From positions 1-20,107 of the forward strand of contig JAFGOU010000433.1 in NCBI GenBank assembly GCA_016926315.1: a stretch of DNA of 20,107 nucleotides. Reading direction: 5' to 3'. Each line of letters begins with the position of its first letter. The first letter of the stretch is position 1. Under the pieces are notes generated by a model that was given only the letters and a program-made list of their open reading frames with translations, was not told where the DNA came from and ran no database searches. The position numbers were made by a program, and so were the translations under genes. Shown here in pieces: positions 3,331-18,072 of the stretch. The DNA is from Chitinispirillaceae bacterium (lineage in GTDB: Bacteria; Fibrobacterota; Chitinivibrionia; Chitinivibrionales; Chitinispirillaceae).

Positions 3331-6018
3331 TCAATGCGCCTCTTTCCAGTTCTTCCCGATCCCCGCATCCACCTTGAGCGGCACGTCGAGTTTGAGCGCT
3401 GTGCCCATCTTCTCCTTGACCCATTCTGAAAATGTCATGGCCTTTTTTTGCGGCGCTTCGAACACCAGCTCGTCGTGCACCTGGAGCAGTATGGTGACAT
3501 CCGGGAACGCGGCAGGCAGCTCTTCGTGAATGCGCACCATGGCGATCTTTATGATGTCGGCCGCGGTCCCCTGCACCGGCGTGTTGATCGCCACCCGTTC
3601 GGCAGCCTCGCGGATGGTGCGGTTGGGTGAAGCGATGTCGGGCAGGTAGCGCCTCCTGCCGAGCATGGTTTCGGTATAGCCGGCGTCGCGCGCCTTTACA
3701 ATGGAGGCGTCGATGTATGCCTTTACCTTCGGGAACTGCCTGAAATAAGCGTCAATAAACCGGTTCGCCTCGGCAAAGGAGATGCCGAGCTGGCGCGACA
3801 GATTGACGGGCCCCATGCCGTACATGAGGCCGAAGTTGATGGTCTTGGCCGCGCGCCGCATGTCGGGCGTGACCATTTCAGGGAAACAGCCGTAAATGGC
3901 GGACGCGGTCTGGGTGTGAATGTCCTTGTCCTGGTGAAACGCCTCAAGCAGGAACGGGTCCTGCGACAGATGGGCAAGAATGCGCAGCTCGATCTGCGAA
4001 TAGTCGGCCGAAACAAGCAGGTGTCCCCTGGGCGCGACAAACGCCTCCCTGATCTGCCTGCCCTCTTCGGTGCGCACCGGAATGTTCTGCAGGTTCGGCC
4101 CGGTGCTCGAGAGCCTGCCGGTCGCGGTCACGGTCTGGTTGAACGAGGTGTGAACCCGTCCGGTGAGCGGATTGATCGCCGCGGGCAGCGTGTCGATGTA
4201 AGTTGAGAGCAGCTTCTGCGCTTCGCGATGGTCAAGGATTTTTCTGGCGATCGGGTGGGCAGGCGCGAGCTTCTCCAAAACGTCAACGTTAGTCTCGTAC
4301 GACCCGACCTTGGTCTTTTTCGACCGGGGCAGCTTGAGGGTATCGAACAGCACCTCGCTCACCTGCTTTGGCGAGTTGAGATTGAACGGGACACCGGCAC
4401 AATCGTGGATTTCACTGGTCAATGCGTCAATGACCCTGGAATATTTCACCGAAAGGGTTTTAAGGAGCGTGGTATCGATGAGCACACCGGCCCATTCGAG
4501 ATCGGCAAGCGCCTGCACGAGCGGCATCTCGATTTCATCATACAGACGGTCGAGTTTCCGTTCGACGAGCAGGGGCTCCAATATCCGCTTGAGCGCGATG
4601 GGTACGATCACGTCCTCGCCCGCGTACGAGGCCGCGTCGCTTACCGTTGTTTCGCCGAAGCTTTTCTGCGTTTTGCCCTTGCCGATAAGCGCCTCGATGG
4701 GCGTGGTCTCGACGCCGAGCCAGTCTGCCGCCAGCTTGTCAAGATTGTACTGCCGCTTTCCGGGATCGATCAGGTAGGCGGCCACCATCGCGTCAAACGC
4801 CAGCCCTTTCATGTCGATCCCCTCGTTTTTAAACACCTGGCAATCGTATTTCAGGTTCTGGCCGATTTTTTTTACCTTGGGCGATTCGATGACCGGGCGC
4901 AGCGTCTTCACTACCTGCTTGAGCGGCAGGTTGTTCCCCTGCACATGGCCTACCGGAACGTAGAACGCCTCTGTCTCGTCTATCGCGAGCGCGATGCCGA
5001 CGAGCCGTGCGCTCCGCGGCTCGGTGCTCGTTGTCTCAGTGTCAATCGATACCTGGCCCGCGTCGGCGATCCTTTCGGCGAGCGCTGCTAGTTCGTCAAT
5101 TGATCCGGCAATACGGGTCGCATGGCCAAGCTTTTTAACCGTTGAAAACAAAGGGTTGCGCAGGAGCGATCCGAATTCGAGCTCCTTGAACAGGGCAATG
5201 CACTGCTCATGCTTCATGGGCTTTCGCCTGAGCGCATCGGGCGCTGCGTCCAACGCAACGTCGTACTGCAGGGTTGCCAGTTTCCTGCTGAGTACCAGGA
5301 TCTCTTTATTCGCCTTGATTTTCTCCTCAAGCTTTGCGTTCTTTGCCATGCCGGGGTCCTTGAGAAGGTTTTCCACGCTTCCTGCCGCCGCGAGCAGTTT
5401 GAGCGCGGTTTTCGGACCCACGCCCGGAAGGCCGGGAATGTTGTCTGACGCGTCGCCCACGAGCGCCAGATAATCGATGATGCGCTCGGGTTCCACACCC
5501 ATTTTCGTTTTCACCTCGTCTGGTCCCATGGCGACAAGAGCGCCGCCGGCTTCCGGAGCGAGCATCCTGACCCTGGGCCCCACGAGCTGCATCAGGTCCT
5601 TGTCCTTGCTGATGATGTAGACCTCGAATCCCTGCGCCACGGCGCGGCGGGTCAGCGCGGCGATGAGATCGTCGGCTTCTACGCCGTCCTGCCTTACCCA
5701 GGGAATGTTCATGGCCGCAATGAGATCATTGACCAGCGGGATCTGCGTTTTCAGGTCGTCGGGCATCTCCTCGCGGTTGGCCTTGTACTCGGCGTACATC
5801 TTGTGCCGGAACGTGGGCTTGTCGCTGTCGAGCGCGATCGCCCAGTACTGGCAGTCGTGGGTTTCGAGCAGGCGCAGAAGGTAGTTGGCGAACCCATACA
5901 CCGCGCCGGTCGGTACGCCCTTGGTGTTGGTAAGGGGATTCCTTATGAGCGCGTAATAGGCGCGGTAGATCAAGGCGTGACCGTCGATGAGATAGAGCCG
6001 TTTGTCTTTATTATTCAT
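3331..6018 (-). CDS. polA: DNA polymerase I, with proofreading
   Basis: 895 residues, full length for the family. Residues 1-290 form the 5'-nuclease (LYLIDGHALIYRAYYA; D116/D117 in EADDL; the KDKDLMQLV acidic cluster; GDASDNIPGLPGVGPKTA helix-hairpin-helix). Residues about 315-480 form the 3'-5' exonuclease, with all motifs present: D326-T-E328, N388-x-x-Y-D392 and Y465-x-x-x-D469. So, unlike Taq-type enzymes, proofreading should be active. The polymerase domain has motif A at D672 (ADYSQIELR), motif B (RRAAKTINFGLMYG, K725, F729, Y733) and motif C H848-D849-E850 (QVHDE). The enzyme removes RNA primers and fills gaps in repair and lagging-strand maturation. The start is the ATG at 6018. The GT2 gene ends only 27 bp upstream on the same strand, so polA is probably read from that transcript. 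Confidence 0.97.
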   Translation of the reverse strand: MNNKDKRLYLIDGHALIYRAYYALIRNPLTNTKGVPTGAVYGFANYLLRLLETHDCQYWAIALDSDKPTFRHKMYAEYKANREEMPDDLKTQIPLVNDLIAAMNIPWVRQDGVEADDLIAALTRRAVAQGFEVYIISKDKDLMQLVGPRVRMLAPEAGGALVAMGPDEVKTKMGVEPERIIDYLALVGDASDNIPGLPGVGPKTALKLLAAAGSVENLLKDPGMAKNAKLEEKIKANKEILVLSRKLATLQYDVALDAAPDALRRKPMKHEQCIALFKELEFGSLLRNPLFSTVKKLGHATRIAGSIDELAALAERIADAGQVSIDTETTSTEPRSARLVGIALAIDETEAFYVPVGHVQGNNLPLKQVVKTLRPVIESPKVKKIGQNLKYDCQVFKNEGIDMKGLAFDAMVAAYLIDPGKRQYNLDKLAADWLGVETTPIEALIGKGKTQKSFGETTVSDAASYAGEDVIVPIALKRILEPLLVERKLDRLYDEIEMPLVQALADLEWAGVLIDTTLLKTLSVKYSRVIDALTSEIHDCAGVPFNLNSPKQVSEVLFDTLKLPRSKKTKVGSYETNVDVLEKLAPAHPIARKILDHREAQKLLSTYIDTLPAAINPLTGRVHTSFNQTVTATGRLSSTGPNLQNIPVRTEEGRQIREAFVAPRGHLLVSADYSQIELRILAHLSQDPFLLEAFHQDKDIHTQTASAIYGCFPEMVTPDMRRAAKTINFGLMYGMGPVNLSRQLGISFAEANRFIDAYFRQFPKVKAYIDASIVKARDAGYTETMLGRRRYLPDIASPNRTIREAAERVAINTPVQGTAADIIKIAMVRIHEELPAAFPDVTILLQVHDELVFEAPQKKAMTFSEWVKEKMGTALKLDVPLKVDAGIGKNWKEAH

Positions 6019-6045: not shown

Positions 6046-6846
6046 TCAGAGGCCCAGCATTTCCCTGAGTGCGCTGCGCAAAAAATGGCCCGATTTGAGA
6101 CCCTTTTTCACGGTTGTCAACCATAATGCCCGCCTGAAAATCCCATCATATTCCTCATGGCGATACTTCCTTCCCAGATACCGGACCGCCCTGGCGTGGT
6201 TTGCGTAATTGAACGAGACGTTTCCGGTCCGGTCCATGAAATAGTACCGGACCAGCGGCTTGTCGATCCCCTTTATCAAACACCCTTTCCTGCAGAGGCG
6301 CAGGTAAAAATCCCAGTCCTGCAGCGCAGGAAGGGCCGGATCGAACCCGCCGATTTCCCGTACCAGCGCGGTCCGGACCATGACCGATGAGGTGGTCCCG
6401 ATATAGTTATCGTACATGATCGATCGCACGCTGTTGTCATATCGAGCCTTCTTGAACACGTACGTGAGCAACCTGCCGTGCGCCGAATACACATTGATGC
6501 CGGTATGGCACAGATCTGGGTCGTGTGGGGCGATGACCGACATCTGTTCTTCAAGCTTTTTCGGCTCCCATGCGTCATCATCGTCAATAAAGGCGCAATA
6601 GTCGCCCGCGGCGAGCATGATTCCCTCGTTGCGCGCTGCGCTCCCGCCGCCGGTGCATTCACGCTGTACCACCCTTATCTTCTCCGATGCAATGGCCGAC
6701 AGATAGGACGCTGTCTCATCACCGGAGCCGTCATTGACCACGATCAGTTCGTAATCGGTAAAGGTCTGGTCGAGCACACTCTGTACGGCGCGCCTGAGCA
6801 CGGCGCACCGATTACAGGTAGGGAGAATGACCGACACGCGCGGCAC
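6046..6846 (-). CDS. Family 2 glycosyltransferase (GT-A fold)
   Basis: 266 residues. It begins with the classic GT2 signature VSVILPTCNR and VQSVLDQTFTDYELIVVNDGS, and has the GSAARNEG motif at 68-75. The DxD-type cluster D88-D91 (FIDDDDAW) binds the metal and nucleotide-sugar, and the catalytic-base region is LQDWDFYLRL (D177/D179). There is no transmembrane segment. It should transfer one sugar from an NDP-sugar to a glycan or lipid acceptor at the cytoplasmic face; the substrate cannot be read from the sequence. The start is GTG at 6846, with a strong AGGAGG 7 bases upstream. It lies just upstream of polA on the same strand and divergently from the GT4 gene at 7006, so together they look like a small surface-polysaccharide locus. 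Confidence 0.92.
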   Translation of the reverse strand: MPRVSVILPTCNRCAVLRRAVQSVLDQTFTDYELIVVNDGSGDETASYLSAIASEKIRVVQRECTGGGSAARNEGIMLAAGDYCAFIDDDDAWEPKKLEEQMSVIAPHDPDLCHTGINVYSAHGRLLTYVFKKARYDNSVRSIMYDNYIGTTSSVMVRTALVREIGGFDPALPALQDWDFYLRLCRKGCLIKGIDKPLVRYYFMDRTGNVSFNYANHARAVRYLGRKYRHEEYDGIFRRALWLTTVKKGLKSGHFLRSALREMLGL

Positions 6847-7005
6847 GAATGAGCCTCCTGGTATACTGTTTTGATGCGCGCAGATGCCCGCAAGGAGCGT
6901 TCAAATAAAGTAACACAAGCCAAAAGGAAAATCTATGATGGCCTCGAATGCAGCAAGAATACGCGTCAGGGCGCATTCCTATTTACTATTTTGAAATGCA
7001 ACGCC

Positions 7006-8151
7006 ATGCGTGTCCTGCATCTCACCAATACGTTTCTGCCCGTGACCCAGAACTGGATCTACAACCAGCTCCGGTTCATGAGCCGCTGCACGTCGTCGGT
7101 GCTCTGCCAGTACCGTGAGAACAGCGAGCTGTTTCCGTTTGATCCGGTCTATCCGATGGTCGAGCGCCTCACGCCGGGCGCCAGGCTGGCCATGCTGGTA
7201 TGGCGGGCGCTGGCGCACTATCCGGCGAGCGCAACCAGAAATGCTTTGGGCCGGTTCAAGCCCGACCTGATTCACGGCCATTTTGCGCATGAATCGTGGC
7301 GGCACCTTGCTGCTCTGCAATCAACCGCTCTTCCGCTGGTAACCACGTTTTACGGCATCGACGTGAACAAGCTGCCCCAAAAAGCGGTCTGGCGCAGACG
7401 ATACGCAGAACTATTCAGCCGTGGCGACGCATTCATTGTCGAGGGTGATTTCATGGCAGAGCAGCTTGCCGGTTGTGGCTGCCCGGCGCAGAAAATCCAT
7501 ACGATTCCGATCGGCATTGATATAGAAGCAATACGGTCACAGCCGCGGGCCCGTGACTCGAGTCTGGTCCGGGTGCTTTTCATCGGGCTCAACCGGGAAA
7601 AAAAGGGTGCGCCGTACGCAGCAAAAGCCGTTGTAAAGGCTTTGCAGAACTGTCCTAACCTGGTTCTCGATTGTATCGGTGACGGAAGGTTTCGCAGCAA
7701 GGTCCAAGCGATTTTCAAACAGACGGGCAGGGCGGAAAGGGTCACCTTCCATGGCACCGTGCCGGTCCAGCGTTATCTTGCACTGCTGGGGAGCGCGGAT
7801 ATCGTGCTTGCACCCAGTATTACCGCCGCTGACGGCGACACTGAGGGCGGGGCGCCCGTCACGGTACTGGAAGCGCAGGCTGCGGGTATCCCGGTGGTCG
7901 GCACGCTGCACTGCGATATTCCCATGGTTGTGGAGCACGGCCGCACGGGACTTCTTGCCCCTGAGCGGGACACGGATGCCCTTGCCGCACATCTGGAGCT
8001 GCTGGCAGGCGACCGCGAACTGCGGGCGGCATTCGGCGTGCGAGGAGCGGCCCGGGCAGCACAGCGGCATGATATCAAAAAACAGGTGGAACGAATCTGC
8101 GACCTGTACGATGTTCTTACTTCCGGTTCTTCGCGCTCAGCTCTTTCTTGA
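7006..8151 (+). CDS. Family 4 glycosyltransferase (GT-B fold)
   Basis: 381 residues from the ATG at 7006, where the family N-terminus MRVLHLTNTFLPVTQNWIYN begins. The frame is open 45 codons further to 6871, but that extension has no family resemblance. The N-terminal Rossmann-like half carries HGHFAHESW and TTFYGIDV. The C-terminal nucleotide-sugar-binding half has VLFIGLNREKKG, LDCIGDG, VTFHGTV, and the signature region SADIVLAPS with EGGAPVTVLEAQAAGIPVV (about 265-298), followed by GRTGLLAP. It resembles the colanic-acid/exopolysaccharide GT4 group (WcaL-like), retaining enzymes that elongate lipid-linked or surface glycans; the actual sugar is unknown. It is the only plus-strand gene recognised here. 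Its last 35 bp overlap the 3' end of the opposing lipoprotein gene. Confidence 0.92.
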   Translation: MRVLHLTNTFLPVTQNWIYNQLRFMSRCTSSVLCQYRENSELFPFDPVYPMVERLTPGARLAMLVWRALAHYPASATRNALGRFKPDLIHGHFAHESWRHLAALQSTALPLVTTFYGIDVNKLPQKAVWRRRYAELFSRGDAFIVEGDFMAEQLAGCGCPAQKIHTIPIGIDIEAIRSQPRARDSSLVRVLFIGLNREKKGAPYAAKAVVKALQNCPNLVLDCIGDGRFRSKVQAIFKQTGRAERVTFHGTVPVQRYLALLGSADIVLAPSITAADGDTEGGAPVTVLEAQAAGIPVVGTLHCDIPMVVEHGRTGLLAPERDTDALAAHLELLAGDRELRAAFGVRGAARAAQRHDIKKQVERICDLYDVLTSGSSRSALS

Positions 8152-9101: not shown

Positions 9102-9926
9102 TTATGACCACGTTGTATATAAAATCTCCAAATTAGGAATACCCTTAGTTCCGCTCGCTGTGAATATATTGGCAACATGAATATTTGAATTTGCATCACC
9201 AGAAACGCTGCCAGCCAAGGTGAAAGCTACATTTCCTGCTGCAGATATGTGAATTGCACCCATCAATTCATTGCCATTATCAATTATAATACAGGGTATT
9301 TTTATATCGTCAGGTGGTCGTATGGTGGTAGGCAGGGGTTGTGCAGAGGTCCCAAAGCCAGTACCGTTCGAGGTTGCAGTAAATCGTTTTATTGACAACC
9401 ATATAACATCCGGCTTGCCGGATTCCAATGCCTGATGCCGCCTGTACCTCGCGGCGATGGTTTGTTCTGTTGTAAACTGAGTATTTGGGAATACCAGTGA
9501 AATATCCCCCTCCGTCACCCCGTCTATGTGATTATATTGATGAATTTTTGCCCTTTGCGATCCATCATGGGTATGATCAACCTGGTTAGCAACGGGCAAG
9601 GTGCCTGTAACTTCTGCGGCTCCGGTTAATAATACCTTAGGTGCCGATCCGTCAAATGCTTTTTCATCGTGTAAATGTCCACCAAAGAGTTCCCACGTCA
9701 CGCTTCCATCAGCAACAGTGGCCCTTAGCGCACCAGGGACCCCAGGTTCCGACGACCCCGATGTCCCTCCTATAGTACACCTCAGCATCTCCCCGCCGCT
9801 CAATTCTATTACATCCCCTGCCGCGTATGCGGTCGAGGCCTGCCACGTCGCCGCGCCGCCGCCGAATATGGTGTTGAGCCATTTACTAAAAACCGTTGAT
9901 CCGCTGATAAATTTTGTCTTCGGCAT
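9102..9926 (-). CDS. Phage tail fibre / tip protein with sugar-binding-like N-terminal module
   Basis: 274 residues, ATG at 9926 with AGGGG about 6 bases upstream. Residues 1-25 (PKTKFISGSTVFSKWLNTIFGGG) are probably an attachment segment. Residues 28-80 match a module common in tail fibres and chitin-binding-like domains (W-x-A-x-TAYAAGDVI, then C50TIGGTSGSSEPG, then DGSVTWEL). Residues 84-135 are rich in His (HLHDEK, DHTHDG, HQYNHIDG), often seen near metal-coordinated fibre shafts. The C-terminal third (205-274) is beta-rich (IKIPCIIIDNGNE, NVAFTLAGSVSG) and could be the receptor-binding head. No peptidase S74 chaperone is present. As the last gene of the operon it follows the gp48-like gene, the usual place for a Mu-type fibre. 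Composition is AT-richer than the baseplate genes. Confidence 0.75.
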   Translation of the reverse strand: MPKTKFISGSTVFSKWLNTIFGGGAATWQASTAYAAGDVIELSGGEMLRCTIGGTSGSSEPGVPGALRATVADGSVTWELFGGHLHDEKAFDGSAPKVLLTGAAEVTGTLPVANQVDHTHDGSQRAKIHQYNHIDGVTEGDISLVFPNTQFTTEQTIAARYRRHQALESGKPDVIWLSIKRFTATSNGTGFGTSAQPLPTTIRPPDDIKIPCIIIDNGNELMGAIHISAAGNVAFTLAGSVSGDANSNIHVANIFTASGTKGIPNLEILYTTWS

Positions 9927-9934
9927 AATTACCC

Positions 9935-10528
9935 CTATTCATTGATAAAAAGTATTTCCCTGCCTGTTTTTTTAAGTCTGTTCAATATTGTCTGCAGGAC
10001 CGTGTCGGTTTCGACGTTGGTGCCATAAACACAACACGTATATCGAGACGCCCCGGTATCTTCGTCGTATACTTCGTCGATATCCGCCTGAGAGATGTCT
10101 GCCCTGAACGGCTTATATTCACCATCGGTCAATCTCGCGTGTGGATCGCCCATCTCGGGCCCGCCGATTGTATAACCCAGCTTTACAACGATACCTTCGA
10201 AATACGGGATGCTCAAACCGCCTATCGCCGCTTCATGGGCAATGACAACCGCACGACGTTGATCCAACGTCGCTCCGGCCGATGGGCTTATCCGATATTT
10301 GGCTTCCCAATATTCCAACAGACCGTATGGCGACGCTCCTGGTGTCGGGTTCTGCGATGAGATATTGTCCCTGGTCGTATCGGGGAACATTTCCTTGAGC
10401 AGTTCGGCAGCAACGGTTTCGATATCGTCGAGAGCATCGCCTTGGATACCGATTATTTTATCAATATTCGGCCCGGTGAAAATACGCGGCAGCAGTTGCC
10501 GCAATATTGTCGCGTTGCTGTTTGCCAT
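9935..10528 (-). CDS. Baseplate wedge protein, Mu gp48 / YmfQ (DUF2313)-like
   Basis: 197 residues. The layout fits the gp48/YmfQ family: an N-terminal helix with LRQLLPRIF, the segment IDKIIGIQGDALDDIETVAAEL, then a stretch with SPYGLLEYWEAKYRI and the family's RRAVVIAHEAAIGGLSIPYFEGIVVKLGY (replacing the common RRAAVxAxxxxxGG core). Its C-terminal half (KPFRADISQ, CCVYGT, LQTILNRLKKTG) matches the usual ending with two beta strands and a helix. In Mu, gp48 and gp47 build the wedge that joins the hub to the fibres. Here it is displaced about 4 kb downstream of the gp47-like gene. The start is ATG 10528, directly after the stop of the previous gene, with GAGG upstream; the next gene begins 8 bp after its stop. 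Confidence 0.8.
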   Translation of the reverse strand: MANSNATILRQLLPRIFTGPNIDKIIGIQGDALDDIETVAAELLKEMFPDTTRDNISSQNPTPGASPYGLLEYWEAKYRISPSAGATLDQRRAVVIAHEAAIGGLSIPYFEGIVVKLGYTIGGPEMGDPHARLTDGEYKPFRADISQADIDEVYDEDTGASRYTCCVYGTNVETDTVLQTILNRLKKTGREILFINE

Positions 10529-10894
10529 TTACTTTACCTCTTCGATTTCCGGCTGTTCGAATTGTTTGAAAAGATTGCGGGCATAAAACCAGCCTGTAGG
10601 GCGCTGACCAGCCGTTTTGCCGAATGCGGTTATAATAAATTCGTCAAGTTCCCCCTTCGAAACACGATATACCTCGACTTCGTCCTGTTCTTTCAAACGC
10701 TTTATCTCATCCACCAGGTCATAACAGGTATTTGCTTTTCGCAATTCTTTCTGATCGGCAGCCGCCACCCCAGCAAGATTTTCCAAGGCTGACAATTCAA
10801 TTTCTCGTACCGACATTTTACCGCCGCCGACCGCGTTATCAATATCGGAAAATGTATCTTTCGGCGATAATTTGAGAATAGCTATTTTTGACAT
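10529..10894 (-). CDS. Small phage protein of unknown function in the fibre cassette
   Basis: 121 residues from the ATG at 10894, chosen because AGGGAG lies about 6 bases upstream; the frame extends to 10951 but that would run into the glycosyltransferase gene. No family was recognised. The protein is soluble and charged: MSKIAILKLSPKDTF, a helical middle (IELSALENLAGVAAADQKELRK, read as two helices), then CYDLVDEIKRLKEQDEVEVYRVS, where the E-V-E-V-Y segment is likely a strand, and a C-terminal helix GWFYARNLFKQFEQPEIEEVK. Similar small helical proteins occur in many tail operons as chaperones or minor tail components; assignment as a fibre or wedge assembly helper is inference from position, between the glycosyltransferase and the gp48-like gene. 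It has 10 bp spacing to the former and none to the latter. Confidence 0.65.
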   Translation of the reverse strand: MSKIAILKLSPKDTFSDIDNAVGGGKMSVREIELSALENLAGVAAADQKELRKANTCYDLVDEIKRLKEQDEVEVYRVSKGELDEFIITAFGKTAGQRPTGWFYARNLFKQFEQPEIEEVK

Positions 10895-10904
10895 AATTCT
10901 CCCT

Positions 10905-11450
10905 CTAATTGGTTTGAGGTTTCCATCCCATAAAATGTTTGTGAATAGCAATAGTTTTCTTCGTTACTGGTGTATTTAATTTTCCACCCATTACTATCGG
11001 ACAATATTCCGTCTCTAAAACAGTTTTGCATTTTTCAAGCATAACAGAATTAGCTTTGCATAGGTCAATCACCAGACATTTTCCATAAATCTTTTTGTTC
11101 GTTTCGACCAGCAGCCGTTCGATTAAAGTATTTTTCTTTTCGCAGCCGACAAAACAATTCATCATTTGCACCATATACCCGGACTTGACGGCAAAGCATT
11201 CGGTATTTAATAGGAGCCCAAACATACCGATCCTATACATATCGCAATCGCAATAGATACCCCCGTTTTCAAGTAGTATTTTCCATCTTGCAATATCTGA
11301 TTGAAAATTAACCGGCAAATCGATGTCAATATTTAATTCCTTAGGAGTCCATATTTTAATTTCGCACGGCCGCCAAGTATTTATGCATTCTTTGTATTTA
11401 TTAGGCATCATACCGCCGGACCAATAAAAATGTATGGTTTGTGGTATCAT
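10905..11450 (-). CDS. Small GT32-type (DXD sugar-binding) glycosyltransferase inside the tail operon
   Basis: 181 residues. It starts with IPQTIHFYWSGG and MPNKYKECINTW, the usual opening of family 32 / Gly_transf_sug enzymes (as in capsule synthesis and OCH1-like proteins). It continues with the diagnostic SDIARWKILLENGGIYCDCDM; the DXD metal-binding pair is D68 and D70 and the S51-D52-x-x-R motif precedes it. A C-terminal H170..W176 (HKHFMGW) fits the family's late HxxxxSW-type motif. It is shorter than most members, lacks a membrane segment and is unusually rich in cysteine (10 Cys). The ATG overlaps the fibre stop by ATGA, so it is cotranslated with the fibre. Substrate is unknown; possible targets are the fibre itself or host surface glycans. 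Base composition is clearly AT-rich, like the neighbouring fibre sequence. Confidence 0.85.
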   Translation of the reverse strand: MIPQTIHFYWSGGMMPNKYKECINTWRPCEIKIWTPKELNIDIDLPVNFQSDIARWKILLENGGIYCDCDMYRIGMFGLLLNTECFAVKSGYMVQMMNCFVGCEKKNTLIERLLVETNKKIYGKCLVIDLCKANSVMLEKCKTVLETEYCPIVMGGKLNTPVTKKTIAIHKHFMGWKPQTN

Positions 11451-14029
11451 AAACTTTCTATCACCATTTTAGTAAGCACACCGAAATAAGACAAATGACA
11501 GGTGCCGCCGAGCCTGTTTTTTATGACAACCTTTTTATTGCTTCCCGGTTTTATATACAGGCATAAACTATTGTCGGTATCGGCACCAACATCATACAAA
11601 CCTGCAGAACTTATGTTTCCAACATTTTGTATATAATGGCCTCCCATTTCTGTCATATAAATCCGCCCAAATATATGAGCATAACGGTAAACTCCATAAC
11701 ATGCGTCCCATTCTCCTACAGCGCTGATATTGATAAATCCCTCGTAATAAAAACTGTCGTCAACGGAATCCTCCAGTAATATTTCTAACTCGCCATCATC
11801 CGTCAACGTTCCCTTGTCTGCGATAATCAACGGCGGGTTTACGGTGTTGTCTCTCGTGAATGTCCCGCTTGATGCGGTAGGATTTCCAACATTTAACCTA
11901 ATAGCTTGAGAAGGATTTGACGAAAGTGATTTTATCCAATGAGTAATCCCTAATGGTGATCCCGTACCTACCCCTACATTTTTAGAACTCCCGTCAAAAA
12001 ACATGACGGTACTTCCCTTACCGTCACATATATATAAATCACGATATTGCGTTGTCGAACCGGCATAACCGTTTTTATTTATATAACCTGCAGCATTGCC
12101 ATTCGTTGATCTATAAAAATCAATCTCACCGGGAGCAATGAATACATCTCCCTGTGTAACACCAAGCATTACCAAATTACAATTTACATCTACATCAGTA
12201 TATGTTCCTCCTATACCAAGCACTAAATTTGTTCCGTTATCATAAATTTGACTATTTACCAGCTTGCTTCCGTCGTTCTTTAAAAGGTAATTGTTAGTCA
12301 AGCTGCCTATGCTGTGGTCGCTGGTAGAATCGAGGGCATGCAGACGATCATGAACACCTATATCTAATAATACTTCCGCACCTGTACGATATTTCAGTTC
12401 ACCCGAATCGCTGACTAAAAACTTATCAGTATCAGAAGTGGCATGAGAAATTGCCGCAAGGGTAAGATTGCCGCTGCTTGTCAATGTCATTACCGGAGTA
12501 GAAAAGTCATTGTTCGTATAATCAAATCTCAGCTGCGCTGTAGAAGCAGCAATCCCGATACGCCAAGCGGCAACGGTTTCCTGTTCTAATTTTATGCCTA
12601 CACGATTTCCGCTTGCTCTTGTAATATGCAAAGGTAAATCCGGGGAAACTTCGCCAATACCCAAATTGCCATTATTTCCAAGCAAGGTCATTATCATCGT
12701 GCCATTAATACCATAACGCCAATAAAAACAATTGACAGTATCTATATAAAGACTACCGGAATTTGCATTAACAAGAAATTGTGATTTATCTGCTTCGCCT
12801 GATCTAAATATTTGACAAGGATATTGATCCCCATAAGGAAAAACAATATTTCCATTATATGTTCCACCAGATGTTCGAGCAAGTTTTAATAATTTACCGC
12901 TCAATGTTTCAACGTCAAGCCTTGCCGCAGGCGATGTTATTCCATTGCCTAAACCCATATTTCCGCTTGTGTCAATATGAAATCTGACCGTTGTTCCAGT
13001 TACATCATATAATGAATACGAACCGCTTACCCCGCCTGCGGCAAGCCCGGCCTGATATTCCCTCACCGTGCTTTTATATACGGTTGCGGCGGTGTTGGCG
13101 CTGCCTGTTTCTATTTTATTAAACACATTGCCGCTTGCCAAATAAGTATGAAGACTTACGGTTGGTGTACAATTTATTCCGACAAAACCGGTATCACGCT
13201 TAATTATCAATGCATCTGCTATACTGCTGCCATCATCCGCCCTTCTGTTTACAACAAGATTGCTTCCAGCATTACTGCCGCTTTCCGCATCACCATTCAC
13301 CCCTATTTTCCATCTGCCAAGCGATCCGGTTTTCAGCCAAAAATTACCTTGATAACCGGCAGGACGTTCAATGGTGAAATTTGCTCCGCCACCTGATGAA
13401 CATTTAGAAGCCACGGCAACATCAGTTCCGGAAACCTCCAATTTGTTGGCTACAGGCACGCCCCCTATTCCAACATTAGTCCCATTATCAAATATCTGCG
13501 AGTTTACCAGCTTGCTCCCGTCGTTCTTGACAACATAATTTGTTGTCAGTGAACCTATGCTATGGTCGCTGGTAGAATCAAGGGCGTGAAGGCGGGTGTG
13601 CGCATTGCCGAGGACCTTTATCCATGACGTCCCGTTGAATGTATAAATCTCGTCCTCGTCCAGGACATAACAGGCAAGGCCTTTCAATGCCGTCACCTCT
13701 ACCCAGGCCAAGCCGTTCCATTCGTAGATATTGTTGTCCGTCCAGCCGTTTGCCGTGGCCGATGCGATATACCGGTCCCCTTCACCGGGATCAGCGGGCA
13801 GGCCCGGCGTCGGATCGTAAATATCAATAACCGGCTCTATCCAATATTTGCTGCCGAAGCCGAATTCGTCCGTGATGGCGTTGCCCAGGCACTCAGCATA
13901 CGCCTTGCCCGGCGAATATTCCGCGCCCGCGGGAACCTCCCAGGCCGCGGGGGCCTGATATACGCGGCCGGCCGCCTGCACCAGACGGGCTTGATCGATT
14001 ATCGACTCTCGCAGTGTCGCCGCGCTCAT
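11447..14029 (-). CDS. Large tail fibre protein with DUF2793-like N-terminal region
   Basis: 860 residues. Residues 1-60 are helical, probably docking to the baseplate. Residues 75-140 resemble DUF2793 of phage fibres (GDRYIASATANGW, IYEWNGLAWVEV, GLACYVLDEDEIYTFNGTSW). The rest is beta-helical fibre text with repeated short motifs of the type G-F-V-G-I-N, N-L-G-I-G-x-x-S-P-x-x-x-L-H-I and N-V-G-V-G (about 183, 282, 357, 455, 684). A block RLHALDSTSDHSIGSLT..NDGSKLVNSQI occurs twice (about 146-186 and 562-600). A common phage module (TSDTDKFLVSDSGELKYRTG) lies at 531-550. The C-terminus (735-860) looks like a compact beta domain; no S74 auto-chaperone motif is seen. It is probably the host-range determinant. 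The start overlaps the spike gene by ATGA. The 5' end is GC-rich like the baseplate genes but the rest is AT-rich, suggesting mosaic origin. Confidence 0.85.
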   Translation of the reverse strand: MSAATLRESIIDQARLVQAAGRVYQAPAAWEVPAGAEYSPGKAYAECLGNAITDEFGFGSKYWIEPVIDIYDPTPGLPADPGEGDRYIASATANGWTDNNIYEWNGLAWVEVTALKGLACYVLDEDEIYTFNGTSWIKVLGNAHTRLHALDSTSDHSIGSLTTNYVVKNDGSKLVNSQIFDNGTNVGIGGVPVANKLEVSGTDVAVASKCSSGGGANFTIERPAGYQGNFWLKTGSLGRWKIGVNGDAESGSNAGSNLVVNRRADDGSSIADALIIKRDTGFVGINCTPTVSLHTYLASGNVFNKIETGSANTAATVYKSTVREYQAGLAAGGVSGSYSLYDVTGTTVRFHIDTSGNMGLGNGITSPAARLDVETLSGKLLKLARTSGGTYNGNIVFPYGDQYPCQIFRSGEADKSQFLVNANSGSLYIDTVNCFYWRYGINGTMIMTLLGNNGNLGIGEVSPDLPLHITRASGNRVGIKLEQETVAAWRIGIAASTAQLRFDYTNNDFSTPVMTLTSSGNLTLAAISHATSDTDKFLVSDSGELKYRTGAEVLLDIGVHDRLHALDSTSDHSIGSLTNNYLLKNDGSKLVNSQIYDNGTNLVLGIGGTYTDVDVNCNLVMLGVTQGDVFIAPGEIDFYRSTNGNAAGYINKNGYAGSTTQYRDLYICDGKGSTVMFFDGSSKNVGVGTGSPLGITHWIKSLSSNPSQAIRLNVGNPTASSGTFTRDNTVNPPLIIADKGTLTDDGELEILLEDSVDDSFYYEGFINISAVGEWDACYGVYRYAHIFGRIYMTEMGGHYIQNVGNISSAGLYDVGADTDNSLCLYIKPGSNKKVVIKNRLGGTCHLSYFGVLTKMVIESL
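12230..12355 (-). repeat. Fibre-internal repeat, copy 2
   Basis: It encodes about 42 residues beginning VHDRLHALDSTSDHSIGSLT, nearly the same as copy 1 (13472-13600). At DNA level the two share stretches such as TGGTCGCTGGTAGAATC and TTTACCAGCTTGCT (plus strand) but differ at many third positions. The copies are in the same frame, 415 codons apart. Confidence 0.85.
13472..13600 (-). repeat. Fibre-internal repeat, copy 1
   Basis: It encodes about 43 residues beginning with HTRLHALDSTSDHSIGSLT and ending SQIFDNGTN. This copy sits at the point where the gene changes from GC-rich to AT-rich sequence. See copy 2 at 12230-12355. Confidence 0.85.
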
Positions 14030-14538
14030 ACGGCCTTTACCTTTGTCGAGAGATGAAGAGGCGCGGACATCTGCACCACGACCGGCGACGACGGCGCGCC
14101 GAGGTTGCCGACATGCGTGTGCGAATTAAACAGCGTCAGGAACGTCTCCCCCTTGATTACCCGTTCAAGGGATTCGGTCAGCGTCTCCCTGCCGATGCGC
14201 ACGTCATCGGACTCGATGATGACCGGCTTGTCGGTCTTCACTTCCACCGTTCCGTCCTTTTTAATCAGGATATAATGAGTCGCGTCGCTGTAGAGCGACG
14301 AGGCGCCGGACATGGCGTTGAGATCCGGACGCTTCGACGGGTCGTCCTCGGCGACGCACACGAGATTGTTGCCGAGGCCGATGACGACCGCGGCGCTCCC
14401 TGCCGGCGGATCGCTGGCAAACCCGTAATGCTGCATGATCTCGCGGTTCCGCAGCATCTGCCCCGGCAGCCCCGTGCCGGTGAATCGCCTCAGCTTCCCC
14501 GCGATCCAGGTCATGCCTTGAATAATCGCCCGAACCAC
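14026..14538 (-). CDS. Baseplate spike protein, Mu gp45 / P2 gpV-like
   Basis: 170 residues. The N-terminal OB-like part (YGFASDPPAGSAAVVIGLGNN, 38-58) matches the gp45 core, followed by the Tyr-Ser-Asp-Ala-Thr turn and a beta-helix shaft (HYILIKKDGTVEVKTDKP, 88-105). Near the C-terminus is the apex motif NSH140-T-H142 followed by VGNLGAPSSPVVV. In P2 gpV and phi92/Mu spikes an HxH pair binds an iron ion at the membrane-piercing tip. A trimer of this protein would puncture the host outer membrane. The start is GTG 14538, one base after the previous stop, with GAGGTG 8 bases upstream. In Mu the spike gene precedes the gp46/47 genes; here it follows the gp47-like gene. Confidence 0.87.
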   Translation of the reverse strand: MVRAIIQGMTWIAGKLRRFTGTGLPGQMLRNREIMQHYGFASDPPAGSAAVVIGLGNNLVCVAEDDPSKRPDLNAMSGASSLYSDATHYILIKKDGTVEVKTDKPVIIESDDVRIGRETLTESLERVIKGETFLTLFNSHTHVGNLGAPSSPVVVQMSAPLHLSTKVKAV

Positions 14539-14539
14539 G

Positions 14540-15367
14540 TCACACCTCGTTGATGGTTATGGTGCCGGGCCAGATGCGCTCGTATACCGTCGGCCCGGTG
14601 GTGACCGCGACGTCGGCCGACGGCGTCGTCACCGACGCGTCGTCGGCGCCGTTGTTTATGGCAATGCTTTCAAGCTGCGACCGGTACAGTTTCTTCCCGA
14701 CGTTGAGCTGCTTCATATGGGCGATGATGTCGGTTTCGGTCTTGTCAACGTCGCAGTCCCCGGACACGTCGATCTCGACGTCCTGCGTTTTCTTGGTCGC
14801 GCCGATCACCAGATAGTCCCCGTCGCCCCAGCATCGTACCAGCTCGATCTTCGCCGTGACCGCGGCGACGAGCTCGGACGTCGGCTCCTCCTCGCCGCCC
14901 TGGGCCTCGGTCCTGGACGACGTGATCACGAGATTGACGCTGCCCATGCCTCGCATGTGCTCGAACGCGAACGCGTCCCTGACGAGCTCGGTGTACGTCG
15001 CATGGCCGTAGGAGACCTCCTTCGCCCATATCGGCCAGTCGAACTGGTTCCCGGACGCGGGCGCGTACCGCAGCCGCTCCAGTATCCGTTCCAGGTAGGC
15101 GGCCCTTGTCTCGCCTGGCAGGCGCGCGATGCCGCGCGCGTTGCCGTGCCGGTCGAGCAGCTCGTCGTCGCAGGTATCCGGGAACAGTTGCCGGGCGATC
15201 CAGTCGAGGTATTTGTACAGTCCCCATTCGGCGCTCGCGTTTGTCGCGGCCAGGACATGGCATAGGCTTCCGACCGACTGGTCGCACCCGGCGAACTCGC
15301 TGTCAAGGTCGGCGAGGCGCGCCTCGAGCAGGTCGTTAAAGTCCTTTAAAAACGGTGTAGCGGTCAT
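14540..15367 (-). CDS. Baseplate wedge protein, gp47 / J-like
   Basis: 275 residues. The family order is recognisable: N-terminal FLKDFNDLLEARLADLD, then SVGSLCHVLAATNASAEWGLYKYLDWIARQLFPDTCDDELLDRHGNARGI (read in parts), the segment TRAAYLERILERLR at about 88-101, then the beta domain with TYTELVRDAF, GMGSVNLVITSSRT and EPTSELVAAVTAKIEL. The C-terminal domain has KKTQDVEIDVSG and DIIAHMKQLNVGKKLYRSQLESIAINN. It is shorter than Mu gp47. J-like proteins form the wedge ring that releases sheath contraction. The start is directly next to the preceding gp46-like stop (TAA then ATG) with AGGG about 9 bases upstream. Confidence 0.87.
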   Translation of the reverse strand: MTATPFLKDFNDLLEARLADLDSEFAGCDQSVGSLCHVLAATNASAEWGLYKYLDWIARQLFPDTCDDELLDRHGNARGIARLPGETRAAYLERILERLRYAPASGNQFDWPIWAKEVSYGHATYTELVRDAFAFEHMRGMGSVNLVITSSRTEAQGGEEEPTSELVAAVTAKIELVRCWGDGDYLVIGATKKTQDVEIDVSGDCDVDKTETDIIAHMKQLNVGKKLYRSQLESIAINNGADDASVTTPSADVAVTTGPTVYERIWPGTITINEV

Positions 15368-15757
15368 TTAAATCACCCTTACGAAGGTTGTGAAAGGCAC
15401 GGTATCCCCGTTTGATTTACGGGCGACGACCTGGATATTTATCCTGTTCGGTTCCGCCCTGTCCTCTTCGGCCGATACCGTTATATCGATGCACCGTCCG
15501 GCCTGGACGATCCATTTTGTCGCGTCCACGATATGCCTCTCGATCTCGGCGGCGATATCGGAGGTCTTTTTTTTGAGGCGCGCATGTCCAGACCCAAACG
15601 ATGTGTTCGCGAAAAAACTTTCCCTCGCAACGACAACGCTCAGGATCAGGTTGTTCCGACAGTCGTCGACGGGGGCGAAATCCGCCGCCGTCGCGTCATA
15701 CGCGAGATCGGCCTCGCCGGTGCTTGTGTCGACCGTTATCGCGAAATCACGAGGCAT
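15368..15757 (-). CDS. Baseplate protein, Mu gp46 / W-like
   Basis: 129 residues from the ATG at 15757, which lies inside the last codons of the hub gene (11 bp overlap); the longer frame to 15835 reads the hub sequence in another frame and is rejected. The sequence MPRDFAITVDTSTGEADLAYD and DDCRNNLILSVVVARESFFANTSFGSG matches the GP46 family, a lysozyme-free relative of T4 gp25 that anchors the sheath to the baseplate. The following part has LKKKTSDIAAEIERHIVDATKWIVQAG and a C-terminal strand pair (RINIQVVARKSN, VPFTTFVRV). The usual acidic start with alternating hydrophobics is present. It sits directly between hub and wedge genes as in Mu and P2. Confidence 0.8.
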   Translation of the reverse strand: MPRDFAITVDTSTGEADLAYDATAADFAPVDDCRNNLILSVVVARESFFANTSFGSGHARLKKKTSDIAAEIERHIVDATKWIVQAGRCIDITVSAEEDRAEPNRINIQVVARKSNGDTVPFTTFVRVI

Positions 15758-16802
15758 AGATCGCCACCCCCGGCATGCCGAGCCGCAACAGGGTCTGCGG
15801 TCCGGCAATTTTATCGCTGGTAAACTTCCTGGCATAGACCAGGTAATCGCCCGCGACGTCGAGCAGCTCGTCGTCGACGTGCGCCAGGACGTTGGTCCGG
15901 TAGTTTTCGCCGTTCTGCGAATGGCCGGGCACCGTATATTCGAACTGGACGAGTTTCGCGCGCACCTGGTTCAGGAGCCGCTTCGCCTCGAGCGCCGGAC
16001 TCCTCTTGTCCATGTTTATCTGCACCACCTTCGGGCGATAAAAAGGGAACTCTTCCGGCACGCTCAGGCTGGCGGTGGCGACGAGATTGTTGTCGTCGGC
16101 GTCCCCGTCCGATTCCTGCGACTGGCTGTAGACGTATACCTTCGAGTACCCGTCGGTGATGTCGTTTTTCCTCTTGCCGCTGATGACATTGTTCCCGCCG
16201 CCGGATTGTTTGCGCGTGATCGAGAACAGCGCCGGCCCCGATGATACCGGCTTGCCGAAGATGAACCGGCCCTGCTCATCGCACCAGAAATGCAGGCCGC
16301 GGGAGGTCGCCGCGGAGCGCAGGATTTCGAACACCGTTGATCCGGGCGTGCAGGTGATCTGCTCGAACGAGATGTTGAGCCCGGAGGCGCCCGGTTCGTA
16401 CATGATGTCGTTGAGCGTATGCACGAACGGCACGCCCTGCAGCACGGACCGCACCAGGCGCGACAGATCGATCGACGACGCCTCTCCTTCGGGATCGACG
16501 AGGTCCCCGAGCGTGGTACAGCAATGGTCGCAGAGCACGCCCATCATGTCGCGGCCCTCGGCCATGACCGCCGTCCCCTCCCGCGACCCGCCGCCGCTTG
16601 TCACTTTATCAATGATCCCCGCCATGGCCTTGCGGTCGTTCACCCACAGGTCGACGCGGCTGCCGGCGGCCAGGCCGGCGGCGCCGGGCCCGGCCGAGAA
16701 TTCGAACGCGTCCGCCGCCATGAACATGTCCGAATCGAACGAATAGGCCGTCACGGTTTCCAGCCGCTCGTTGTTCACGGTTATATGGACGGTGTTATGC
16801 AT
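15747..16802 (-). CDS. Baseplate hub protein, Mu gpP (gp44) / P2 gpD-like
   Basis: 351 residues. The first domain (VHITVNNERLETVTAYSFDSDMFMAADAFEFSAG in parts, then GSRVDLWVNDRKAMAGIIDKV) is the typical hub beta-barrel start. It is followed by an AVMAEGRDMMGVLCDH motif, which corresponds to the family's G-R-D-x-x-x-x-L-V-D core at about 80-92, and DLSRLVRSVLQGV. A middle part with GSTVFEILRSAATSRGLHFWCDEQGRFIFGKP fits the FxxLxxxAxxxGLxxxxDxxG hub motif. The rest (SKVYVYSQSQ, VVQINMDKRSPALEAKRLLNQVRAK) also matches. The hub trimer holds the spike. The start overlaps the gpN-like stop by 8 bp. Confidence 0.88.
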   Translation of the reverse strand: MHNTVHITVNNERLETVTAYSFDSDMFMAADAFEFSAGPGAAGLAAGSRVDLWVNDRKAMAGIIDKVTSGGGSREGTAVMAEGRDMMGVLCDHCCTTLGDLVDPEGEASSIDLSRLVRSVLQGVPFVHTLNDIMYEPGASGLNISFEQITCTPGSTVFEILRSAATSRGLHFWCDEQGRFIFGKPVSSGPALFSITRKQSGGGNNVISGKRKNDITDGYSKVYVYSQSQESDGDADDNNLVATASLSVPEEFPFYRPKVVQINMDKRSPALEAKRLLNQVRAKLVQFEYTVPGHSQNGENYRTNVLAHVDDELLDVAGDYLVYARKFTSDKIAGPQTLLRLGMPGVAIYAS

Positions 16803-18072
16803 AAGTCAATATCTCGCCGGATACGCGGTTCGGGTTCCGTATCGCCGGGTTCACCGACAACACCCGGTCCGCCATGCCGACCGGGATGCCGTACCGCAGG
16901 CAGACGATATGCAGCGGCGTCGACGTTTCGATTGTTTTCGGCACGAGCCGGTGCCGCTGCAGGCGGATCTCCATGACCTGGCGCAGCAGGATTTCGGCGG
17001 TTTTTTTCCAGCACGGCGACGACCGGTCCAGGTCGACGCACTGCTGCAGCATGGCCCTGGCGATCGCCAGCGTGTCGTCGAGCTCGTTGATGGTCATGAC
17101 CGCGGGCGCGCTTTCGGTTGAGGTCCTCGTTCCCAGGACGTCGAATTGCGGCTCGGACTCGAGCCGTTTGAGCGTCATCGCCGCGTCGTTGTCGATGCCG
17201 TACTGGTACGCCGTTTCCAGGGAGTACCGGGACGCCGTTGCCATGCGCGCCTGGTCCCGCGCGTTGAAATCGTCGTTCCGGAACAGCGCGACGAAGCCTT
17301 CGTACGCCGCCTCCAGGTTGGCGAGCCAGGCGCGCGGCGACAGGGCGTCGGGCTTGTCCGCGCAGAACCTCTCGGCCGCGCGCGCCATCGCCTCGACCAG
17401 CCTGCCGGGCAGGCGGGACCCGTAATCGATGGTGTTTACAAACGATGAAGCGGCGATGTCGGTGTCGCCGAGCGTTGCTTCGCACCGCGCGATCGCCGCG
17501 TCGACGTCGGCGAGGTAATCGCGCGCGGCCTGCGAGGCGGACGTGAATTGCGATAGCAGCGATTGCTCCGGGTCGATGTCGGTGCCGCAGATCTCCGACG
17601 CCTCGGCGCCGAGCGAATCCTCCATGCCGTCGGCGAACGACTGCATCTGCGCCTCCTGCGCCGAGGTATACTGCTCCTCGACCTGCGGGCCCACGGTCGT
17701 CGGCAAAAACGATACGGCGTCGGCATCGTCCTCTTCGACGATAAAGGTCAGGTCTATTTCAGCGGCGTTCTTCCGGTCGTCATAGACGATTATACAGGAC
17801 GATACCTGCCCGTAGAGCGTGCCGAACGCGGGGTGTTCGAGCATGTGCCGGTCGCCGACAGTGGTCATGCGGCGCACGAAATCCGCGTGCTCGGCATATC
17901 GGTCCTCGAAAAACTGGCACTTGATGCGTATTGGCCGGTCGTCGAGGCCCATGTTCTCGAGCAGGGCACCGCGCCGGTACGGGATTTTGTGCTGGGCCAC
18001 GGCCATGGCGAACGAATCCTGCACGTCGATCGTGTCGAGGATGATGCCGTCAATGCTCCATCGTTCGGTCAT
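16795..18072 (-). CDS. DNA-circularisation N-terminal domain protein, Mu gpN-like tail protein
   Basis: 425 residues from the ATG at 18072 (ATGA overlap with the tape-measure stop; GGAGGG about 8 bases upstream). An in-frame ATG at 18093 would add only seven residues. The N-terminal 90 residues (TERWSIDGIILDTIDVQDSFAMAVAQHKIPYRRGALLENMG in parts, then IRIKCQFFED) match the family named DNA circularisation N (Mu gpN), a tail component between tape measure and hub. A long acidic helical middle follows. The last 40 residues (TPLHIVCLRYGIPVGMADRVLSVN.. and NRVSGEILTY) look like a LysM-type or tail-X-type peptidoglycan-binding end. The family name comes from Mu genetics; the structural role is as a tail-tip or hub protein. 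Confidence 0.87.
   Translation of the reverse strand: MTERWSIDGIILDTIDVQDSFAMAVAQHKIPYRRGALLENMGLDDRPIRIKCQFFEDRYAEHADFVRRMTTVGDRHMLEHPAFGTLYGQVSSCIIVYDDRKNAAEIDLTFIVEEDDADAVSFLPTTVGPQVEEQYTSAQEAQMQSFADGMEDSLGAEASEICGTDIDPEQSLLSQFTSASQAARDYLADVDAAIARCEATLGDTDIAASSFVNTIDYGSRLPGRLVEAMARAAERFCADKPDALSPRAWLANLEAAYEGFVALFRNDDFNARDQARMATASRYSLETAYQYGIDNDAAMTLKRLESEPQFDVLGTRTSTESAPAVMTINELDDTLAIARAMLQQCVDLDRSSPCWKKTAEILLRQVMEIRLQRHRLVPKTIETSTPLHIVCLRYGIPVGMADRVLSVNPAIRNPNRVSGEILTYA

Follow-up and report, generated by a model that had tools for sequence, protein, structure and literature searches.

Enzymes of the GT32 type carry out retaining sugar transfer from a nucleotide-sugar, and in Gtr-type serotype conversion clusters the flippase GtrA and the bactoprenol transferase GtrB stand beside the glycosyltransferase. 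The window, that is, the whole stretch of 20,107 nucleotides analysed here (contig JAFGOU010000433.1 of a Chitinispirillaceae bacterium), contains a GT32-type glycosyltransferase gene in a Mu-like contractile tail operon, directly after the gene of a large tail fibre. The encoded protein is almost certainly a GT32-type enzyme with a GT-A fold, and we tentatively suggest that it glycosylates the virion, probably the fibre. The closest described tail loci are those of SuMu and the Klebsiella phage ST405-OXA48phi1.1, which share with the window the set of tail tape measure protein (TMP), GpN, GpP/gp44, gp45 to gp48 and fibre. Their order is gp45-gp46-gp47-gp48-fibre-fibre assembly, with no annotated glycosyltransferase in the stretches viewed, whereas the window reads gp46-gp47-gp45-fibre-glycosyltransferase-ORF121-gp48-second fibre. 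Among the open-licence papers that literature searches listed, none describes a GT32 enzyme in a Mu-like tail operon in its title or in the opening lines of its abstract. Virion glycosylation by mycobacteriophage glycosyltransferases provides a reported precedent (PMC12363180; PMC12619734), and according to the first of these reports, Che8 gp110 and Corndog gp38 act on the phages' own virion proteins (PMC12363180). The enzyme of the window would resemble them in this function.

The glycosyltransferase and its family

The gene occupies positions 10905 to 11450 of the minus strand and encodes 181 residues, exactly as the first-pass annotation had placed it. The assignment to the GT32 type comes from conserved residues, from the predicted structure and from a match to PF04488 (Gly_transf_sug; 25.4 bits, over the cut-off of 23, with E 2.4e-5, which is better than chance). 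The signature QSDIARWKILLENGGIYCDCD is found in the protein, whose key residues are the DXD motif D68-C69-D70, D52 and R55 of the SD..R element, and the C-terminal H170-x5-W176. Two sets of sequences were used for comparison. The listed relatives are the best 120 of 6858 proteins at E <= 0.001, retrieved with a profile built from three sequences (the window enzyme, a phage enzyme and a bacterial-type enzyme); one of the 120 is the window enzyme itself, which leaves 119. The phage-locus set comprises 65 open reading frames (ORFs), taken from 64 of 69 viral loci, with five loci lacking a glycosyltransferase ORF left out, and from one further locus (L002). D52, G63, G64, D68 and D70 are invariant in all 119 relatives and all 65 phage-locus ORFs, and R55 is kept in all of the former and in 64 of the latter, the phage-locus figures being biased since that set was partly collected with motif-containing patterns. 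Both aspartates of the DXD motif, the loss of which in relatives had been proposed as a sign of inactivity, are thus unchanged. An artefactual or pseudogene origin was ruled out, as the frame is open and both domain ends are conserved.

The sequence itself is isolated. Identity to GT32 relatives is 19-30% over the alignments, with local segments of at most 38%. A sequence-only search of 5.8 billion proteins gave 15 candidates and returned only the window enzyme, and a search of the same kind in the viral collection produced no match. In the phage collection, the matches besides MT835535 (see below) were MW202462 and MW202544, which were set aside; they cover only residues 1-70, at 36%. PADLOC matched neither the enzyme nor ORF121, the ORF that follows it. 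By these searches, the enzyme is an isolated GT32, a member of a known family without a close sequence relative.

The predicted fold is consistent with this assignment. A first AlphaFold model, based on an alignment of 53 sequences, reached a predicted local distance difference test score (pLDDT) of 73.2 and was poor beyond residue 120. The second model, built with 40 more varied sequences, reached a pLDDT of 86.4 and a predicted template modelling score (pTM) of 0.84; it is good over most of residues 1-170, with mean pLDDT of 51 at residues 121-130 and 68 at 171-180. A structure search with the model, the follow-up that the first-pass annotation had suggested, matched the GT32/Och1-like GT-A enzymes YeGT, PaToxG, SetA and Och1. 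GlyE, alpha-1,3-galactosyltransferase and a small glycosyltransferase of PBCV-1, titled as involved in capsid glycosylation, are also among the matches. The structural alignment spans residues 1-181, which corresponds to the catalytic domain alone, without an added domain.

Compared with GT32/PF04488 enzymes of the Och1 fold, the window enzyme has the same DXD, SD..R..GG and GT-A fold, together with the H-x5-W of longer members, but it has 181 residues, no loop before the SD helix and 11 cysteines. Of the 119 listed relatives, 117 are longer than the window enzyme, in agreement with the earlier remark on its small size, and the alignment locates the missing loop before the SD helix. The C-terminal motif reads HKHFMGW at residues 170-176. 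Beyond residue 90, H-x5-W occurs in all 89 listed relatives of 230-330 residues and in five of the seven phage-locus ORFs within the same length range, and is absent from the 28 listed relatives and 54 phage-locus ORFs of 190-230 residues; shuffling produced it by chance in 43 of 2000 cases for the C-terminus of the window enzyme and in 97 of 1780 for those long relatives. The presence of this motif rules out a truncated GT32. The cysteines had been counted as 10, whereas there are 11, more than in any listed relative (maximum 9) or any phage-locus ORF under 320 residues (maximum 7). The cysteine richness pointed out earlier is real, at 6.1% compared with at most 3.4% among the 119 relatives. 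C22 is kept in all 119 relatives. The DXD motif itself reads D-C-D with a further cysteine before it (C67, C69); all 119 relatives have Leu or Val at position 67 and Ser or Ala at 69, and Cys at position 69 also occurs in three of the 65 phage-locus ORFs.

Most phage-locus enzymes (52 of 65) have 200-219 residues. A tree was built of the window enzyme and 17 representatives of 177 sequences, in which the bootstrap had not settled; seven short GT32 sequences group together (support 100/99), and the window enzyme lies outside this clade. Short phage GT32 enzymes, such as those of MW202462 and locus L028, are phage-borne and short like the window enzyme, but unlike it they form this separate clade, lack H-x5-W (0 of 82) and have neighbours of the packaging side, often with a methyltransferase gene after them and a terminase nearby. 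The window enzyme may be a longer-type GT32 that was shortened independently of the common short phage form.

The virion as the target and the tail operon

The enzyme lies in a virion structural operon, and action on the virion would be the most economical reading of that position. The proposed enzyme would be a small, metal-dependent GT-A protein with a DXD motif and an intact-looking catalytic centre, presumably acquired along with an exchangeable fibre body and produced late, with the tail proteins. With a nucleotide-sugar as donor, it would add one sugar to a virion protein, the fibre encoded just upstream being the likeliest acceptor, and the sugar could alter receptor binding or shield the particle. 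Virion glycosylation is favoured because the fibre and the glycosyltransferase have a low GC content at third codon positions (GC3) in common, and because GT32 enzymes occur in virion operons of other phages. GC3 is 0.65-0.86 in six upstream tail genes, 0.40 in the fibre and 0.39 in the glycosyltransferase. The drop takes place inside the fibre gene, where GC is 64% over the first 200 nucleotides and 35-45% beyond residue 333, and an exchange of the fibre body together with the glycosyltransferase would leave a trace of that kind.

In two other phage loci, on IMG/VR contigs (L056:3583-5193 and L066:3671-5281), a GT32 of 536 residues follows the major capsid gene and one 111-residue ORF and precedes a head-tail joining gene. 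The two enzymes are 98% identical, so the loci represent one lineage, and the L056 major capsid gene matches Phage_capsid_4 with 167 bits and the Mu-like gpT with 41 bits. This enzyme is a candidate capsid glycosyltransferase; like that of the window it is a GT32 within a virion structural operon, but it has 536 residues and stands on the head side. In a further locus (L075:1887-8405), a tail fibre, a 408-residue protein of unknown function and a 1195-residue GT2-methyltransferase-GT32 fusion are consecutive on one strand. MT835535 (L001), which is filed as an unverified phage, was rejected as a phage precedent; by reading of the translations, its GT32 belongs to what looks like a bacterial surface-polysaccharide locus.

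The tail operon occupies positions 19850 to 9102 of the minus strand and, besides the glycosyltransferase, contains the following genes:

18069 to 19850, minus strand: TMP (PF10145, 78.4 bits)
16795 to 18093, minus strand: GpN/DNA-circularisation-like tail protein (PF07157, 38.3 bits)
15747 to 16802, minus strand: Gp44/GpP-like baseplate hub (phrog_177, 156 bits; Pfam matches below cut-off)
15368 to 15835, minus strand: Gp46-like baseplate protein, start uncertain (phrog_180; PF07409 below cut-off)
14540 to 15367, minus strand: Baseplate J/Mu Gp47-like protein (PF04865, 56.2 bits)
14026 to 14538, minus strand: Mu Gp45-like baseplate/spike protein, GTG start (PF06890, 36.6 bits)
11447 to 14029, minus strand: large tail fibre of 860 residues, with a GC-rich N-terminus containing DUF2793 and an AT-rich body
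10529 to 10894, minus strand: ORF121, 121 residues without a recognised family, between the glycosyltransferase and gp48
9935 to 10528, minus strand: Mu Gp48-like baseplate protein (PF10076, 48.9 bits; phrog_203)
9102 to 9926, minus strand: second fibre- or decoration-like protein at the distal operon end (by position and a weak match to phrog_20658, head decoration)

The Mu-like contractile tail context described in the first-pass annotation is borne out, since TMP, GpN, the hub and the gp45 to gp48 families all stand in one operon. The contig ends upstream of TMP, and for this reason a prophage, a remnant and a tailocin are indistinguishable from this sequence. The glycosyltransferase had been placed between the fibre and gp48; it does follow the fibre directly, but ORF121 separates it from gp48. 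ORF121 begins 10 nucleotides past the glycosyltransferase stop codon and is preceded by GAGGGAG. Searched partly as a 118-residue version (10529-10885), it gave no recognisable relative in any of the libraries and sequence sets used. It was also considered as one of the small genes that often follow related fibres, and this was rejected, as a comparison with 19 such ORFs revealed no similarity (best E 0.14).

Within the fibre, the module RLHALDSTSDHSIGSL..NDGSKLVNSQI.DNGTN is present twice, at residues 146-185 and 562-601. The gp47/Baseplate J protein of the window lacks, in the alignment, about 80 middle residues found in SuMu and the Klebsiella phage. Downstream of the operon, a gap of 232 nucleotides is followed by chromosomal-looking genes including PolA, GT2 and GT4; the divergent GT2 and GT4 genes (6046-8151) adjoin PolA (3331-6018). 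A scan of GTDB genomes, limited by patterns, gave 22 loci in which the best segments of PolA are only 37-48% identical, and the host may therefore be poorly sampled.

Several observations weigh against glycosylation of the virion. The first concerns the tie to the fibre. The 4-nucleotide ATGA overlap of the fibre stop codon with the glycosyltransferase start is present as described, but its interpretation as a special coupling of the two genes is weakened by an identical 4-nucleotide overlap in the gp45/fibre pair. From TMP through to the second fibre-like gene, each of the ten intervals measures -89 to +10 nucleotides; overlap is therefore normal here and gives little sign of coupling to the fibre, and as a proof of such coupling it was rejected. 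Low GC3 is also found in the 118-residue ORF (0.44), gp48 (0.55) and the distal gene (0.43), so the AT-rich block is not limited to the fibre and the glycosyltransferase. Between 8800 and 14600, promoter-like sites are at chance level (14 found, compared with 12.5 in shuffles, standard deviation 3.7), and terminator-like sites, which are pattern matches only, are in excess (13 compared with 5.7, standard deviation 2.4). Several of the latter lie inside the fibre gene, on the strand of the operon and upstream of the glycosyltransferase, and if real they would reduce its expression. The fibre is also without a marked Ser/Thr-rich stretch (at most 27% per 60-residue block).

The second group comes from other loci. 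The Mu-like set, collected with a gp47 profile, consists of the best 80 of at least 524 confirmed viral loci, all of them at least 50% identical to the gp47 of the Klebsiella phage; 72 show gp48, and downstream of gp47 at least 2 kb are available in 63 and at least 3 kb in 41. A GT32 between fibre and gp48, for which the first-pass annotation had proposed to survey such operons, did not appear: none was found in these 80 loci together with L098-L100 (83 loci, 1177 ORFs; best E 0.012), and GT2 (PF00535) was present in none of the 50 Mu-like records given. A fragment of the fibre holding the first module copy matched 203 viral stretches. Of the best 80 among these 203 loci, 33 contain an ORF recognised as a related fibre, followed in 22 cases by at least 600 nucleotides, and no GT32 was found in the 80 at E <= 0.1. 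Across the two sets of 80, in which many loci are incomplete, the survey shows no sign of a general fibre-GT32 partnership. As to relatives of the tail operon itself, scans of viral contigs with the glycosyltransferase, the hub and gp48 confirmed no close one. The gp48 profile had weak matches in one of 193 and two of 198 genomes of two phyla, and metagenomic relatives of gp48 (P0003-P0005) reach 56-66% identity. Among the 47 given of 70 phage glycosyltransferase loci, many of them fragments, Baseplate_J was matched once at E <= 0.001 and never above the cut-off.

The neighbours of phage GT32 genes belong to the same side of the balance. Genes on the same strand within 4 kb were clustered, and representatives alone were identified. 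The clusters include a methyltransferase (28 members; representative phrog_8156, from L070), a downstream gene of about 227 residues without a PHROG match (20), terminase large subunits (23 and 17) and a portal protein (21); in L050, the gene downstream of the glycosyltransferase is FkbM by Pfam. Most of the phage GT32 loci found have neighbours unlike those in the window: the two clusters represented by terminases amount to 40 neighbours for 65 glycosyltransferase ORFs. L056, L066 and L075, described above, depart from this pattern. In the tree, moreover, the window enzyme is a singleton on a long branch, placed without support, with L045 nearest. Finally, the activity, the acceptor and the benefit are inferred.

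Other targets and fates of the enzyme

An alternative, which we regard as unlikely, is that the enzyme acts on a glycan of the host envelope, either during infection or in the lysogenic state, and so blocks superinfection or changes a receptor. Its H-x5-W is that of the longer GT32 enzymes, being common to all 89 listed relatives of 230-330 residues. One longer GT32 lies in L001, a surface-polysaccharide locus by reading of its translations, and L045, the nearest phage relative in the tree, adjoins a nucleotide-sugar epimerase. However, no GtrA- or GtrB-like family was found among the ten scanned operon proteins or TMP, and thus no flippase or GtrB-like partner, although the element is incomplete. 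The position among tail genes suggests late expression, which would be of little use for lysogenic conversion, and GT2 and GT4 (6046-8151) are situated past the end of the operon, near PolA.

It is rather improbable that the gene is a passenger (moron) captured by the exchangeable fibre region, either transient or with a target that is neither virion nor envelope, such as DNA bases or small molecules. Such an origin is suggested by an AT-rich singleton that has no counterpart in the 80 Mu-like and 80 fibre-fragment loci, and by phage GT32 enzymes elsewhere occurring in several different neighbourhoods. The gene is, however, in frame, with its catalytic residues intact and both domain ends present, so that selection on function probably is, or was, recent.

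A degenerate GT32 that has lost sugar transfer is very unlikely. The short length, the missing loop before D52, the 11 cysteines, the Cys at position 67 instead of the usual Leu and the Cys within the DXD motif would be compatible with decay, but the core catalytic positions are kept, Cys at position 69 recurs in the three phage-locus ORFs mentioned above, and the fold is predicted with high confidence over most of residues 1-170. We consider it highly improbable that the contractile particle carries the enzyme as cargo for injection into target cells: the enzyme's best solved-structure matches, by fold and weakly by sequence, include effector and toxin glycosyltransferase domains, but they may mirror which GT-A enzymes have been solved, as Och1, GlyE and alpha-1,3-galactosyltransferase match too, and the protein aligned over residues 1-181 is a catalytic domain only, without an added domain.

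Meaning for phage host range

If the gene is a passenger, it would be an ordinary moron. Under the favoured reading, glycosylation of the virion, the locus offers a small single-domain glycosyltransferase candidate beside its likely acceptor. It is possible, though doubtful, that contractile phages exchange the fibre body and a minimal GT32 dedicated to it as one cassette, each new fibre bringing its own sugar decoration. If such a cassette exists, receptor binding or shielding would hinge on a glycan that the phage itself adds after translation. Glycosylation of the fibre by a phage enzyme, if true, would add to host range a layer that is invisible in the fibre sequence alone.
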